Source: Corynebacterium appendicis CIP 107643 (lineage in GTDB: Bacteria; Actinomycetota; Actinomycetes; Mycobacteriales; Mycobacteriaceae). Taken from it: a DNA stretch of 64,000 bases. A program made the position numbers and the translations under genes. The notes beneath the pieces were generated by a model. It was not told the origin of the DNA and did not search any database. It saw only the letters and a program-made list of their open reading frames with translations. The stretch spans positions 1,674,001-1,738,000 of the forward strand of contig NZ_CP046976.1 in the NCBI RefSeq assembly GCF_030408415.1, given 5' to 3'. This document shows, piece by piece, positions 30,879-37,042 of the stretch (position 1 is the first letter of the stretch; each line of letters opens with the position of its first letter).

Positions 30879-31511
30879 TCAAAAAGTGTCGTCCCTTGAG
30901 CTCCCCTTCTTCTCCCGCTTTTTCCCCTCCGCCCACAGGCGGTCCTGCTCGTCGACGGGAACAGTGCCGGTGGAGCCGTCGAAGAAATAGGGTGCGCGGT
31001 TCTTCATCTTGTCCACGAAGGCTTGGGCGACGTCGGGGAAAGTGAAGGCGCCGCGGCGGGACGCGATCTCGGCGTGGAAAAGGATCTGGAGGAGGAGGTC
31101 GGAGAGCTCCTTCTTGAGGGCGTCGTCGGGGTGGTGGTTGCGGATGGCGTCGATAAGCTCGTCTGTTTCTTGCTCGAGGTACTCGATGAGCGATTCGTGT
31201 GTCTGTGCCATCTCCCACTCGCCGCGGGTGCGGGCGGTGCGCATGACGGACTGGGCTTGGAAGAGCGGGTCCGCAAGCGAGGGCGCCTCAATGATGCTCT
31301 CCCCCGCCACGATGCGCTTCTGCACCTCCGGGTCGGTGACGTCGGTGGTGACCAGTGTGCCCTGCGCAGATTCAGTGGTGGAGATGTCGCCCAGGTTCCA
31401 GCGGACGGAGACAGGCACCTCGTCGGTGTACGCGATCGGGCCAGCGAGGCTGGTGGCGGCGGCCAACGGGATCATGTCGGGCCAGCGGGGGTCCAGGACG
31501 AGGATGGTCAT
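30879..31511 (-). CDS. mazG: MazG family nucleotide pyrophosphohydrolase
   Basis: 210 residues from ATG 31511 (MTILVLDPRWPDMIPL). The MazG core is near the C-terminus: HESLIEYLEQETDELIDAI (E-x-x-E), then KKELSDLLLQILFHAEIA (E-x-x-D) as Mg ligands. The first 90 residues are a corynebacterial/mycobacterial N-terminal extension. It hydrolyses NTPs, cleaning the nucleotide pool. It is part of the mazG-transglycosylase-eno neighbourhood known from mycobacteria. Confidence 0.9.
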   Translation of the reverse strand: MTILVLDPRWPDMIPLAAATSLAGPIAYTDEVPVSVRWNLGDISTTESAQGTLVTTDVTDPEVQKRIVAGESIIEAPSLADPLFQAQSVMRTARTRGEWEMAQTHESLIEYLEQETDELIDAIRNHHPDDALKKELSDLLLQILFHAEIASRRGAFTFPDVAQAFVDKMKNRAPYFFDGSTGTVPVDEQDRLWAEGKKREKKGSSRDDTF

Positions 31512-31549
31512 GGGGTCAATGGTACGACGCGGATCAAAAGGCGCAGGCG

Positions 31550-32119
31550 CTATCGATCGGTATGATCGGAGCGTGTTTCCGGGAGACGTTCCTGAGTCCA
31601 AGAGAACTGGGTAGACGGCACTTGCGAATTGGCAATCACTACACGGGCGATTTTCATTTTCCGGCATTCAGCCTCAACTAAGTCATTCAAATCAGCGAGC
31701 GCCTTGTAGAGCGTTGCCTTGTTCCCTCGTACTTCCACTGCAAGTGCGACTTTGATCTGGTCGACACGAAGAGCCCGCTTACAAAACTCCTGTTTATGAT
31801 GAGTACCGAAGTAGGCATTGGCGACCAGGCGAGCCATCGTGTGGAAGACTTTCAGGGCGAAATCGCGCGGCAAATCTGGGTTTATTTTCTTACCCGGATA
31901 GGTGTAATCCTTCACCTCGATCAACCAGAGACGATTTCCTTCCAAGGCCAGCAAGTCGCAGTCTTTCGCGTTGAACGGCTCGTCGGTAAGCGGTTTCGCT
32001 CCACGGCTCTGCCCGTACCAGGAGTCATAGTCTTCAACTTCCCAATCCTTCGGAAAGGTAAAGAGCATGTCCTCCACGACGACAGTGTTCGCTGCTTCGT
32101 CAGCGGCTAATTTACCCAT
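31550..32119 (-). CDS. PD-(D/E)XK nuclease-like protein, partner of ATPase
   Basis: 189 residues, soluble. DCDLLALEGNRLWLIEVKDY fits a PD-(D/E)XK active site, with D55 and E68-x-K70 as candidate catalytic residues on a beta hairpin. I do not recognise a named family. It overlaps the upstream ATPase gene by 8 bases (its ATG lies in ATGGGTAA with the ATPase stop), so the two are made together. Base composition is more AT-rich than neighbours. The pair is inserted between mazG and dnaG. Likely a nuclease effector of a defence module; unproved. Confidence 0.7.
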   Translation of the reverse strand: MGKLAADEAANTVVVEDMLFTFPKDWEVEDYDSWYGQSRGAKPLTDEPFNAKDCDLLALEGNRLWLIEVKDYTYPGKKINPDLPRDFALKVFHTMARLVANAYFGTHHKQEFCKRALRVDQIKVALAVEVRGNKATLYKALADLNDLVEAECRKMKIARVVIANSQVPSTQFSWTQERLPETRSDHTDR

Positions 32120-33194
32120 CGAAATCTTGCTCCAAGTAGCGGAGAGACTGTGCAGCTTCTTCCTCTAAAGCAGTCAAAGTAGGCAACTCCGCCTGTTCCC
32201 TCACCGCCATGCCGCTGACACCTACCAAGGCATCATTTCTGCTGCTTTCATCTACACGTTCTAGGCCGACATAGACGGTATCAATCGGATCCTTGTCAAT
32301 GAGCAGGCGCAATTCACGAAGGATGAAGACACTATGAGTGGCGACAAAAACTTGGGTACCGTGCTTTGCAAGCAAATGGATGGTCTTTGCAACGGCCCGC
32401 TGTGTCCGCGGATTAAGATTCGCCTCGGGCTCATCCCAAAACAGGTAGCCACCCTCAAGCAACACGCCCGACTGGACGAGGCGCACAAGCATAGCCAACT
32501 TGCGGTACCCCTCGCTAACTAGGTGAGCCTCAATATTTCCAGTGGCCCCGGCTGCCGTTTTCAGTTTCACATAGAACTGCCCCTTATCTTCAACCACTGA
32601 CCCCTCCAGAATCTCCAAGAGCGGCGCTAGCATCTCGTTAGCCTGCTGCCCCCGCTTACCGAGAAGGGCCGTTCTCCCCAAAAGAGCTGCGGTATCGCGC
32701 CACGTTTCATCGAAGGAAGTTTCGCGAGACTCGTAAAGGGCAATCAAGCCCGGGTAGATCGACAGTAGCTCGCGTGAGGGTAAAAATACTGCGGTATCAG
32801 GAAGAGTCTGGCTTGGCAGCGAAGAGACTTTCACCTTGTTCGCCGCTTTAGACGAGAAGTTGAATTCGAAGGCTGAGCCCAGCCCGCGATATTTGAGTCT
32901 TACTTCTGCTCGACTATTACCTCGAACGCGACTAGCTAAGCGACCCAAGCTATCCGGTTTGAATACACCCACCAGCTTCTTCGCGAGAGCACCCTCCATT
33001 CCGGTTTTGGACGGGCCCTCAATCCATCCGTTCTCCATTGTCTTCGTAGACGTATAGAGGAGCTTGAGCAGCTGGGTCTTGCCCGTTCCGTTGTCACCGG
33101 TCACAACATTGAGTTGCGGGCTGAAACGCAAGTCTAGACCGCCGAAGGGGCCGAAACTGCTGGCAGACAAATGCTCAATAGGATGAGTGGGCAT
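32112..33194 (-). CDS. AAA/ABC-type ATPase of a putative defence pair
   Basis: About 360 residues from ATG 33194 (TTG 33212 is a possible longer start). Walker A GDNGTGKT at 33-40, ABC-like signature SEGYRKLA at 227-234, Walker B YLFWDEPEANL at 250-260, and the switch His in VFVATHS (H287). The middle (about 90-220) is an insertion as in AAA_15/AAA_21 proteins of the OLD, PARIS and Rad50-like group. No TOPRIM domain is fused. It sits 33 bases past the dnaG stop and is coupled to the nuclease-like gene. Cytoplasmic sensor or motor role is inferred. Confidence 0.85.
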   Translation of the reverse strand: MPTHPIEHLSASSFGPFGGLDLRFSPQLNVVTGDNGTGKTQLLKLLYTSTKTMENGWIEGPSKTGMEGALAKKLVGVFKPDSLGRLASRVRGNSRAEVRLKYRGLGSAFEFNFSSKAANKVKVSSLPSQTLPDTAVFLPSRELLSIYPGLIALYESRETSFDETWRDTAALLGRTALLGKRGQQANEMLAPLLEILEGSVVEDKGQFYVKLKTAAGATGNIEAHLVSEGYRKLAMLVRLVQSGVLLEGGYLFWDEPEANLNPRTQRAVAKTIHLLAKHGTQVFVATHSVFILRELRLLIDKDPIDTVYVGLERVDESSRNDALVGVSGMAVREQAELPTLTALEEEAAQSLRYLEQDFDG

Positions 33195-33227
33195 GCTTAA
33201 ATCGTAGGCCAAACTTACCGATTCGTC

Positions 33228-35120
33228 CTACGACCCCCTAAACGCCCGATCATTCAGCTCCCGCCGCGCCTGCTCGAGGGCGACGAGGTCGGAGAAGAGG
33301 GCGTTGTAGGCCATCTCGTCGTCGCTGGGGCGCATGCGCTGCAGCTGGGACTTGAGCTGGGCGATCTGGTTGCCCACGCGGACCTCCTGCAGGCGTGACA
33401 GGACGGAGTCGGCGTAGGAGGCGGGGTCCTCGGCAAGGATGTCCTCGACGGCGAGCTCGGAGACGAAATTGCGGCCGGCGGCGTCGATCATCTCGTCGGA
33501 GACGTGCGCGATCCAGCTGGAGCCGGCATTGGCGGCGCCGCCGACTCGGCCCATGGCGTCGCGGACTGCGCGGTAGGCGGGGTGGGTGAACGCGTCGGGG
33601 TTGATGCCGTCGAAGTAGCTGCCGGCGGCCTCCGGGTACTGCAGGGCCACTTTGAGGGCTTCGCGCTGGGCCCACAAAAGCGGGTCCTGCGGGTCGGGCA
33701 GCTCGAATGCGGGTTGGTTGGGCGCGGGCTGGTTCTGCTGGGCCGGGGTGGCCATGTCCCAGGCGGAGCGCTTCTGCTGCTTCGGTTTCTTGGCCTCCTC
33801 GCGGACCTGGCGGATCACCTCGTTCGGGTCCGGCCAACCCACCCAGCCGGCGAGCTGGCGGGCATATTCGGTCTGCAGCGGGGTGTCGCGGATCTGGGCG
33901 ACGACGGGGACCGTGCGGCGCAGGGCCTGCAGCCGGCCTTCGGCGGTGTCGAGGGAGAAGTCCTGCAAAAGGGACTCGATGACGAACTCGAACATCGGAA
34001 TGCGACTGGCCACGAGGTCGCGGACGGCCGAATCGCCCTTGGCCATGCGCAGATCGCACGGGTCCATGCCGTCGGGGGCAACGGAGACGAACGACTGGCC
34101 GGTGAACTGCTGGTCCCCCTCGAAAGCGCGCATGGCGGCCTTCTGGCCGGCCTCGTCGCCGTCGAAGGTGTAGATCAGCTCGCCGCGGAAGTAGTTGTCG
34201 TCGAGCATGAGACGGCGGATGATGCTCATGTGGTCCTTGCCGAAGGCAGTGCCGCACGCAGCCACCGCCGTTTTCACACCGGCGGCGTGCATGGCCATGA
34301 CGTCGGTGTAGCCCTCCACCACCACGCACTGGTGGCCGTCCGCGATATTCTTCTTCGCCAGGTCGAGGCCGAAGAGCACCTTGGACTTGTGGTACAGCAT
34401 CGTGTCCTGGGTGTTCATGTACTTGCCCATCGGGTCGTCGTCGAAGAGCTTCCGGGCGCCAAAGCCGATCACGTTGCCGGCCACGTCCTTGATCGGCCAC
34501 AGCAGGCGGCGGCGGAACTTGTCGATGGGACCGCGCCGCCCCATTGTCGACAGACCCGCATCGACGAGTTCCTGGACCTCGAAGCCCTTGCGCAGCAGGT
34601 GCTTCGTCAAAGTGTCCCACCCGTCGGGGGCGTAGCCGCACTCGAAGTGGTGGATGATGTCGCGGTCGAAGCCGCGGTCGAGCAGAAAGCGGCGGCCCAC
34701 TTCCGCTTCAGGCTGCTCGAGCTTGTCGCGGTAGAACTCGTGCGCGGCTTTATTCGCCGCGATGAGGCGGGCGCGGGTGCCGGGCTTGACGTCGCGGGCG
34801 CCGGTGGATCCGCCCTGGTAGTTGATGTGGTAGCCGATCTCCTCCGCGACGGCCTCGACCGCCTCGGGGAAGCTCAGCTGCTCCATCTCCATCATGAAGG
34901 AGAAGACATCGCCGCCTTTGCCCGTGGAGAAGCAGTGGTAGTACCCGCGGACCGGGCGCACGTGGAATGACGGCGTCTTCTCGTCCTTGAACGGGCTCAG
35001 CCCCTTCAACGAGTCGTGCCCGGCGGGCTTGAGCTGAACGTACTCGCCCACGATGTCGGCGATATTGGCGCGCTCGCGGATAGCCTCGATGTCACTATCC
35101 GGAATTCTGCCCCTAGCCAT
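33228..35120 (-). CDS. dnaG: DNA primase
   Basis: 630 residues from ATG 35120. Makes RNA primers at the replication fork. The N-terminal CHC2-like region (LSPFKDEKTPSFHVRPVRGYY, HCFSTGKGGDVF) is degenerate: positions normally Cys, His, Cys, Cys are S42, K45, C63 and T66. The TOPRIM core is normal: VVVEGYTDVMAMHAAG, YTFDGDEAGQKAAMRAF. A C-terminal helicase-binding region follows. dgt lies nearby as in mycobacteria. In-frame codons up to 35192 are possible but MARGRIPDSDIEAIRE is the usual N-terminus. Confidence 0.96.
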   Translation of the reverse strand: MARGRIPDSDIEAIRERANIADIVGEYVQLKPAGHDSLKGLSPFKDEKTPSFHVRPVRGYYHCFSTGKGGDVFSFMMEMEQLSFPEAVEAVAEEIGYHINYQGGSTGARDVKPGTRARLIAANKAAHEFYRDKLEQPEAEVGRRFLLDRGFDRDIIHHFECGYAPDGWDTLTKHLLRKGFEVQELVDAGLSTMGRRGPIDKFRRRLLWPIKDVAGNVIGFGARKLFDDDPMGKYMNTQDTMLYHKSKVLFGLDLAKKNIADGHQCVVVEGYTDVMAMHAAGVKTAVAACGTAFGKDHMSIIRRLMLDDNYFRGELIYTFDGDEAGQKAAMRAFEGDQQFTGQSFVSVAPDGMDPCDLRMAKGDSAVRDLVASRIPMFEFVIESLLQDFSLDTAEGRLQALRRTVPVVAQIRDTPLQTEYARQLAGWVGWPDPNEVIRQVREEAKKPKQQKRSAWDMATPAQQNQPAPNQPAFELPDPQDPLLWAQREALKVALQYPEAAGSYFDGINPDAFTHPAYRAVRDAMGRVGGAANAGSSWIAHVSDEMIDAAGRNFVSELAVEDILAEDPASYADSVLSRLQEVRVGNQIAQLKSQLQRMRPSDDEMAYNALFSDLVALEQARRELNDRAFRGS

Positions 35121-35162: not shown

Positions 35163-35606
35163 ATGTCTACTGACGGCGACAGTTCGAGCCATTCAGTGGC
35201 TCTGCCTTTGATCCTCATCATCGGCCTCATCACGCTCGTGGCCGTCGTGTACTCGATCGTGCACGACCCAGACAGCCCGGAGCGCACAGGCACCCCGCAA
35301 AGCAACGAGAGCGGGATCAGCGAGTGCGCGTCGATTCCGCCAGAAGCAACAGAGCTTATCGACGACATCCACTCCGGCGGCCCCTTCGACCACCCCTCCA
35401 ACGACGGCAGCCACTTCGGCAATTACGAACAGATCCTGCCGCGTGAAGACTCGGACTACTACCGCGAATACACCGTGGAGACCCCCGGTGTGGATCACCG
35501 CGGGGAACGCCGCATTGTCACCGGCGGAGGCACCGAGACCGATCCAGACGTGTACTACTACACCGACGACCACTACGAATCCTTCTGCGAGGTGACCGTC
35601 GAATGA
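35163..35606 (+). CDS. RNase Sa-like guanyl-specific ribonuclease
   Basis: 147 residues with an N-terminal membrane or signal helix (LPLILIIGLITLVAVVYSIV, 14-33). The catalytic part aligns with Streptomyces RNase Sa: YYREYTVETPG, RGERRIVTG and YYYTDDHYESF. The Sa catalytic set E54, R65, R69, H85 corresponds to E102, R113, R117 and H137, all present. It should cut RNA after G, outside the cell or on its surface. Its last codon overlaps the barstar-like gene in ATGA. Divergent from dnaG. Confidence 0.85.
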   Translation: MSTDGDSSSHSVALPLILIIGLITLVAVVYSIVHDPDSPERTGTPQSNESGISECASIPPEATELIDDIHSGGPFDHPSNDGSHFGNYEQILPREDSDYYREYTVETPGVDHRGERRIVTGGGTETDPDVYYYTDDHYESFCEVTVE

Positions 35607-36091: not shown

Positions 36092-37042
36092 ATGGGGGAA
36101 ATTCGGGAATGGGTACAACTCGCTGAACAGGACGTACGGGAGCTCCGGCAGCGATATTTGGAAGAGCGAATTCAGGTTTCGCGTCAGGATCGTGGGATGC
36201 CCCCGCCAGGCCTTAGTCTCGTGTCGCCGACCAGTGGAATTGCGTCCGAGTGGTTTCGAAGCCTCCGGATGAAGCAGCGATTCGTCGTGCGCGGTGCGGC
36301 TGCCGCGAAAGAGACGCGAAAGGCTGTGCTCATGGGTGCCTGGGCGGCCGCGCAATGGGGAATGTGGTTCATGCTGCCGAAAGATCCGGCGGTGGAATTC
36401 GCGTTGCCGTCCGGGCATCAACCGTCGAAAAGCATGCTTCCGCCTGGAGTGCGATTCAGGTCCTTGAAGCTCCGGGAGGGCGATGTCGTGCAACTAGACG
36501 GTGTGCGCGTGACGCATCCTCTTCGTACGTACCTGGATCTGTGCCGCATGCAGGACCGCACGAATGCGTGGCTCGCGGCGGGGTGGCTGCTCGAGCGCGG
36601 TATCAGTGCCCAGGAGATCGCGGAGTACGCGGAGAGCTTCGATGGTCCGATGCATCCGAACCGGAGGCGTCTGGCTGTGTCGCTTCCTCACCGAGCACGG
36701 GAGGTGGGCTGGTTCCCGTATCTGCTCGCGTATGCGCTTCTCGAGCACTCCCCTGTTTCCGTCCGTACCCACTGCGAACTGGATGAGATGGGGCACGCGG
36801 TTCTGCTCGCTGGGAACGACCTCGTCATCGCCGTCGACGAGGATCCGCTGTGTCGCGAACTGGAAAGCGAAGGTGACGGCGATGGGTTAGCGCGCAACCG
36901 CCGCAGGCGCGAGAGGTGGATTGCCGCGCGCGGATTCCGCAAGCTCTACTTCACGGCCGAAGAAATCGAGGCGGACCCGGATGGCTTCGTCAGTGAGGTG
37001 CTCGGAGCAACGCGCTTGCGGAACCGGCGGCTGACGTATTGA
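36092..37042 (+). CDS. AbiEi-like / DUF559-type protein
   Basis: 316 residues, uncharacterised. The middle (about 95-160: FALPSGHQPSKSMLPPGVRF, VTHPLRTYLDLCRMQD) resembles AbiEi C-terminal antitoxin regions, and the C-terminus (VIAVDEDPLCRE ... RNRRRRERWIAARGFRKLYFTAEEI) resembles the Vsr/DUF559 endonuclease fold, though catalytic residues look altered. Such two-part proteins are common single genes in actinobacteria with unproved functions. A palindrome lies just upstream. No nucleotidyltransferase partner (AbiEii) is adjacent. Confidence 0.55.
   Translation: MGEIREWVQLAEQDVRELRQRYLEERIQVSRQDRGMPPPGLSLVSPTSGIASEWFRSLRMKQRFVVRGAAAAKETRKAVLMGAWAAAQWGMWFMLPKDPAVEFALPSGHQPSKSMLPPGVRFRSLKLREGDVVQLDGVRVTHPLRTYLDLCRMQDRTNAWLAAGWLLERGISAQEIAEYAESFDGPMHPNRRRLAVSLPHRAREVGWFPYLLAYALLEHSPVSVRTHCELDEMGHAVLLAGNDLVIAVDEDPLCRELESEGDGDGLARNRRRRERWIAARGFRKLYFTAEEIEADPDGFVSEVLGATRLRNRRLTY

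Follow-up and report, generated by a model that had tools for sequence, protein, structure and literature searches.

A free-standing HEC-02 ATPase and nuclease gene pair between dnaG and mazG of Corynebacterium appendicis, a probable anti-phage module

What are two overlapping genes doing between dnaG and mazG in Corynebacterium appendicis CIP 107643, and do they belong to a known kind of system? An earlier note, made from the sequence, had read them as an overlapping ATPase and PD-(D/E)XK-like nuclease pair and as a candidate for an undescribed defence module. In this study, we analysed both proteins, their relatives and their surroundings in a window of 64,000 nucleotides, by which we mean the whole stretch of DNA analysed.

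The locus and its two proteins

The four genes lie on the minus strand in the order dnaG, ATPase, nuclease and mazG. The features of the pair, in window coordinates, are listed below.

31512..33227, no strand assigned: accessory stretch from the dnaG stop to the mazG start, 1716 bases (20 and 29 bases in the close relatives G035 and G055)
32112..33194, minus: HEC-02 ATPase, ABC-type with an SMC/Rad50/PtuA-like head, 360 aa (PADLOC, Pfam, AF2, Foldseek)
33075..33098, minus: Walker A GDNGTGKT, ATPase residues 33-40 (sequence)
32691..32708, minus: ATPase family motif ETWRDT, residues 163-168, invariant in 45/45 rows, an invariance on which it bears that the motif lies within one of the two scan patterns used for locus finding
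32409..32447, minus: Walker B and D-loop YLFWDEPEANLNP, ATPase residues 250-262 (sequence)
32334..32336, minus: switch (H-loop) histidine H287 of the ATPase, invariant in 22/22 and 45/45 rows
32112..32119, minus: 8-base overlap of the ATPase stop and the nuclease start (sequence)
31550..32119, minus: HEC-02 nuclease, small and PD-(D/E)XK-like, 189 aa (PADLOC, AF2, VIA matches)
31955..31957, minus: putative catalytic D55 of the nuclease, present in 71/71 aligned partners
31910..31918, minus: putative catalytic E68-x-K70 of the nuclease, E68 in 71/71 and K70 in 70/71
31850..31852, minus: K90 of the nuclease, in the helix after the ExK strand, present in 71/71 aligned partners

The dnaG stop codon (33228-33230) lies upstream of the ATPase gene, and the likely start of mazG is the ATG at 31509-31511; a longer mazG ORF, reaching 31667, would overlap the nuclease gene. 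The overlap of the two genes suggests that their translation may be coupled. The GC content of the pair is 53.2%, against 64.0% for the window, and one of 624 sliding windows of the same size is equally low. The 8-base overlap, the position between mazG and dnaG and the higher AT content, all put forward in the earlier note, are thus confirmed. Because of its low GC content, a foreign origin of the pair is suggested. Among the ORFs inspected between dnaG and mazG in the window, there is no integrase gene.

The ATPase matches Pfam AAA_21 (E 2.1e-15), and its AF2 model (pLDDT 85.5) has Septu PtuA as its top Foldseek match (1.4e-14); by structure comparison, the fold is nearest to the heads of PtuA, SMC and Rad50. 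G33, N35, G38 and K39 of Walker A are unchanged in all 22 alignment rows, and so are F252, W253, D254, E255 and P256 of the Walker B region, part of which is overlapped by the second scan pattern used to find loci. The Walker A, Walker B and switch histidine claimed earlier for this protein are therefore borne out by the sequence and by their invariance.

The partner was harder to place by homology. Its AF2 model is good (pLDDT 90.7, pTM 0.87), and VIA structure matches to known nucleases are modest and interspersed with unrelated proteins. Foldseek against the PDB gave no confident match, the sequence gave nothing among solved structures up to E 10 and no PHROGs match at E <= 0.01, and in Pfam NERD was sub-threshold (E 0.2). 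A PD-(D/E)XK fold is supported, at a weaker level than the fold of the ATPase. The proposed D55...E68-x-K70 site fared well, its residues being nearly invariant among the 71 aligned partners, 70 of which also keep D71. K90 is carried by helix 83-103 of the AF2 model, and from its position it is possibly an accessory active-site residue. Taken with the Pfam, PADLOC, AF2 and structure matches and the loci described below, the reading as a tightly linked ATPase and PD-(D/E)XK-like nuclease is supported.

Two further ORFs of the window were recorded, both on the plus strand. The first, near dnaG (35163-35606, 147 aa), strongly matches Pfam Ribonuclease (PF00545, 2.2e-22) and has a hydrophobic N-terminus. 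The second (36092-37042, 316 aa) matches AbiEi-like models of PADLOC weakly (best E 2.4e-4) and nothing in Pfam at E <= 0.01; it is possibly a lone AbiEi-type protein.

Membership in HEC-02 and occurrence in other genomes

Both proteins were run against the 5027 models of PADLOC-DB 2.0.0, and models of HEC-02 were the best matches of both. The ATPase matches PDLC04146 at near full length (E 4.8e-98, residues 9-356 of 360), and the nuclease matches PDLC04145 (E 1.2e-16, residues 14-149), a diverged match compared with 1.7e-65 for the nuclease of locus L021. The layout here is that of adjacent genes, the ATPase first, with the 8-base overlap. As PADLOC gave HEC-02 for both genes, we dropped the term undescribed; the earlier statement that no named type fits also falls, as HEC-02 fits and WonAB, discussed below, shows the same layout. 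Owing to its HEC-02 membership, the pair largely falls within a known named system: it is of a known kind with a tested representative, and is already catalogued as a candidate. PADLOC-DB labels the HEC-02 ATPase model PDLC04146 as B and PDLC04213/04214 as A, and the nuclease models PDLC04145 and PDLC04228 as A and B, respectively. Since these labels are inconsistent between models, we name the parts by protein.

The HEC candidates were reportedly defined by Payne et al. 2024 (preprint). In our literature search, which did not cover that preprint, HEC-02 turned up only in an unrelated chemistry paper, with no assay. The abbreviation is given as Hma-embedded candidate (PMC12988326), and the name is explained by the position of relatives of the pair between HmaB and HmaC. 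This arrangement was mapped by tblastn with the proteins of locus L048, which match PADLOC HmaB and HmaC at E 0, and it was found in five of 80 loci, themselves the best 80 of 157 (L023, L046, L048, L052 and L074). For L023, L046 and L052, either HmaB or HmaC is matched in part, close to a contig end, and about 1.2 kb separate HmaB from the ATPase in L046. In L048, Septu PtuAB adjoins the embedded pair. In contrast, the copy in C. appendicis is free-standing, outside Hma.

The 80 loci were taken as the best of 157 confirmed in an ATPase profile search of the genome collection, and by their record titles they span Actinobacteria, Proteobacteria, Cyanobacteria, Planctomycetes, Verrucomicrobia, Spirochaetes and others. 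In 78 of these best 80, the ATPase is immediately followed by a nuclease profile match, which is split or partial in at least five (L009, L033, L049, L064 and L066). Of the two exceptions, L072 is cut by its contig end 26 bases past the ATPase, and L045 has no nuclease match behind the ATPase. As the profile had been built from 70 of the partners found and the window's own nuclease, a two-fold cross-validation was carried out; each half of the 71 was left out once, and every protein was recovered (worst E 2.6e-25). The distance matrices of ATPase and nuclease correlate with r 0.80 over 69 pairs, a value that includes shared species ancestry and was reached in none of 2000 permutations, as expected for partners that travel together.

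Mobile carriers are not the usual context of the ATPase in the collections searched, because at E <= 1e-20 it occurs in two of 50,697 phage records and in five of 72,556 plasmid records; the two phage records are short contigs from faeces and carry no annotation. The nuclease alignment found one weak partial locus (residues 47-73) among viral contigs. Across the phylum, at least two of 396 genomes, the window's own included, match the model of the HEC-02 ATPase at E <= 1e-60, in a scan that scored five candidates per genome and may undercount; none of 14 control genomes does.

Within the genus the ATPase is sporadic, occurring at E <= 1e-40 in eight of 201 genomes, its own included. Seven of the eight have nuclease matches, that of G181 being split. 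In the eighth, G149 (L121), the ATPase frame is intact and no nuclease profile match follows it; by eye, the stretch behind it looks decayed and resembles an N-terminal remnant. The pair occupies the same site between dnaG and mazG in G178 (C. glaucum, L126) and lies behind dnaG in G038 (L120), whereas the other five copies (L121-L125) have no dnaG or mazG match in the fetched 17 kb. The distance from dnaG to mazG varies among the relatives examined, and in the close relative G071 (L091 1276-1497) a different sequence of 222 bases takes the place of the pair. In G038, the nuclease is followed by a second, diverged dnaG 3' end (L120 892-1152; 80% identity to the genome's own dnaG over 265 bases), an arrangement that might result from entry of the cassette at the 3' end of dnaG. 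The pair is thus an accessory module that was probably acquired horizontally.

We also scanned 104 flanking ORFs out of 249; they come from 20 of the 32 loci whose flanks are complete. At E <= 1e-15 these matched 66 PADLOC models, a count taken without a control set; among the 25 models listed, none occurs in more than four of the 104 ORFs, and the 25 Pfam matches listed are mainly metabolic or regulatory families. The flanks of the sampled free-standing copies are therefore not obvious defence islands. Of the two checks named in the earlier note, recurrence of the pair in other genomes and location in such islands, the first is borne out by co-occurrence in the 78 loci given above, and the second showed no obvious island around the sampled free-standing copies.

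Proposed function and alternative readings

The closest tested layout is that of WonAB, a two-gene operon of the Vibrio cholerae WASA-1 prophage, described as encoding an OLD-type ABC ATPase and a small PD-(D/E)xK nuclease (PMC12137116). As reported there, WonAB is an abortive-infection system by experiment; both genes are needed, and protection is lost in ATPase mutants and in the nuclease mutant K71A (PMC12137116). The overproduced nuclease is toxic only together with active WonA, translation stops while genomic DNA stays whole, and a possible target named by the authors is rRNA or tRNA (PMC12137116). They place WonAB, whose homologues are described as mainly Gram-negative, in a larger, uncharacterised family of ABC-ATPase sensors with nuclease effectors (PMC12137116). 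The pair studied here shares the operon layout, but its nuclease fold match is modest. By published numbering and description alone, K34 and E300 of WonA are 266 residues apart, compared with 216 for K39 and E255 of our ATPase, and WonB is a 16.1-kDa protein, compared with the 189 aa of our nuclease. Because of this difference in spacing, we call the pair WonAB-like rather than WonAB.

Modules of an OLD-ABC ATPase with a PD-(D/E)XK REase were reportedly treated by Krishnan et al. 2020. OLD-type ABC ATPases in which HNH, PD-(D/E)XK or PIN nucleases replace TOPRIM are described, with the three pairings counted together, from 594 taxa that carry BREX or related systems; the ATPases are proposed to sense phage and the nucleases to serve as backup or suicidal effectors (PMC12839542). 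Judged by that description, the PD-(D/E)XK REase modules have the same protein pairing as ours (PMC12839542).

Other named systems fit less well. The ATPase has a PtuA-type head by fold, but its match to the PtuA sequence model is weak (1.7e-11). The Septu effector PtuB is an HNH nuclease, with which an HNH_I-A model match is consistent, whereas our partner is PD-(D/E)XK-like with a conserved D...ExK; no PtuB appears for the nuclease among the matches listed at E <= 10, where filters drop most above 0.1. PD-T4-4 is said to be organised much like WonAB (PMC12137116). However, our ATPase matches PD-T4-4_A only over residues 183-299 (3.5e-16), far more weakly than HEC-02, and PD-T4-4_B is absent from the matches listed at E <= 10 under the same filters. 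PARIS (AriA and AriB) and Gabija, as described, resemble the pair in their OLD/ABC-type ATPase sensors but have TOPRIM effectors, a nuclease domain that was looked for as a mark of OLD too; no TOPRIM Pfam match is listed at E <= 1 for either of our proteins. Membership in PARIS, Gabija, Septu and PD-T4-4 was rejected.

We consider it probable, from the analysis as a whole, that the pair is a free-standing, horizontally acquired HEC-02 anti-phage module whose ATPase detects infection and in response licenses the nuclease, much as in WonAB. A dimer of the ABC-type ATPase, with its PtuA/Rad50/SMC-head fold, would recognise some sign of infection, and ATP binding or hydrolysis would license the small nuclease bound to it. 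The nuclease would then cut nucleic acid and halt the infection. As with WonAB, this would most likely be abortive infection, in which the infected cell itself is shut down. By analogy with WonAB, we infer the dimer, the complex and the defence activity itself. The suspicion of a defence module voiced from the sequence is supported by the HEC-02 match, the pairing, the catalytic residues and the Hma embedding of relatives.

It is possible, if rather doubtful, that the pair instead acts like a restriction or anti-plasmid system, with an ATPase that would recognise foreign DNA by its ends, structure or missing marks and a nuclease that would destroy this DNA while the cell survives. Such action has already been proposed for SMC-like complexes, and PtuA, SMC and Rad50 heads are nearest in fold to the ATPase. 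Many structure matches of the nuclease, among them BspD6I, BsmI, FokI and Hjc, are DNases. Moreover, the Hma clusters hosting relatives include a DNA methylase. However, the stretch from dnaG to mazG in the window contains no modification gene, and the WonAB operon is reported to spare genomic DNA and to block translation (PMC12137116).

Far less probable is a toxin-antitoxin pair maintained by addiction, in which the ATPase would be the antitoxin to the nuclease. The genes overlap and are tightly paired, and AAA_21 carries the Pfam label 'putative AbiEii toxin', but the toxicity of the WonAB nuclease, as reported, needs its ATPase rather than being blocked by it (PMC12137116), and membership among toxin-antitoxin systems was rejected; the ATPase that G149 keeps without a nuclease match is compatible with either role. 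Least probable of all is an accessory DNA-repair or replication pair working with dnaG, to which the Rad50/SMC-like head and the position beside dnaG in the window genome, G178 and G038 would point, but which is opposed by the 193 of 201 genus genomes lacking an ATPase match at E <= 1e-40, by the five genus copies with no dnaG or mazG match in the fetched 17 kb, by the relatives embedded in Hma and by the low GC content that suggests foreign origin.

Returning to the HEC-02 anti-phage module that we favour, a more specific version is rather unlikely but worth stating: the actinobacterial free-standing HEC-02 pairs might be a distinct branch that parallels WonAB in Gram-positive bacteria. Their PD-(D/E)XK enzyme, activated by an ABC-ATPase sensor, would have become an RNase acting on tRNA or rRNA and would abort infection, and in Corynebacterium the cassette would spread without an integrase, through recombination at the dnaG 3' end.

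Taken alone, the pair is no new kind of system. Through it, the catalogued candidate HEC-02 gains a free-standing example from a tractable Gram-positive genus, and HEC-02 is shown here to be widespread and nearly always a two-gene unit. The concrete residues, together with a near-empty-site control, would allow a test of whether pairs of an ABC ATPase and a PD-(D/E)XK nuclease share the mechanism of WonAB.
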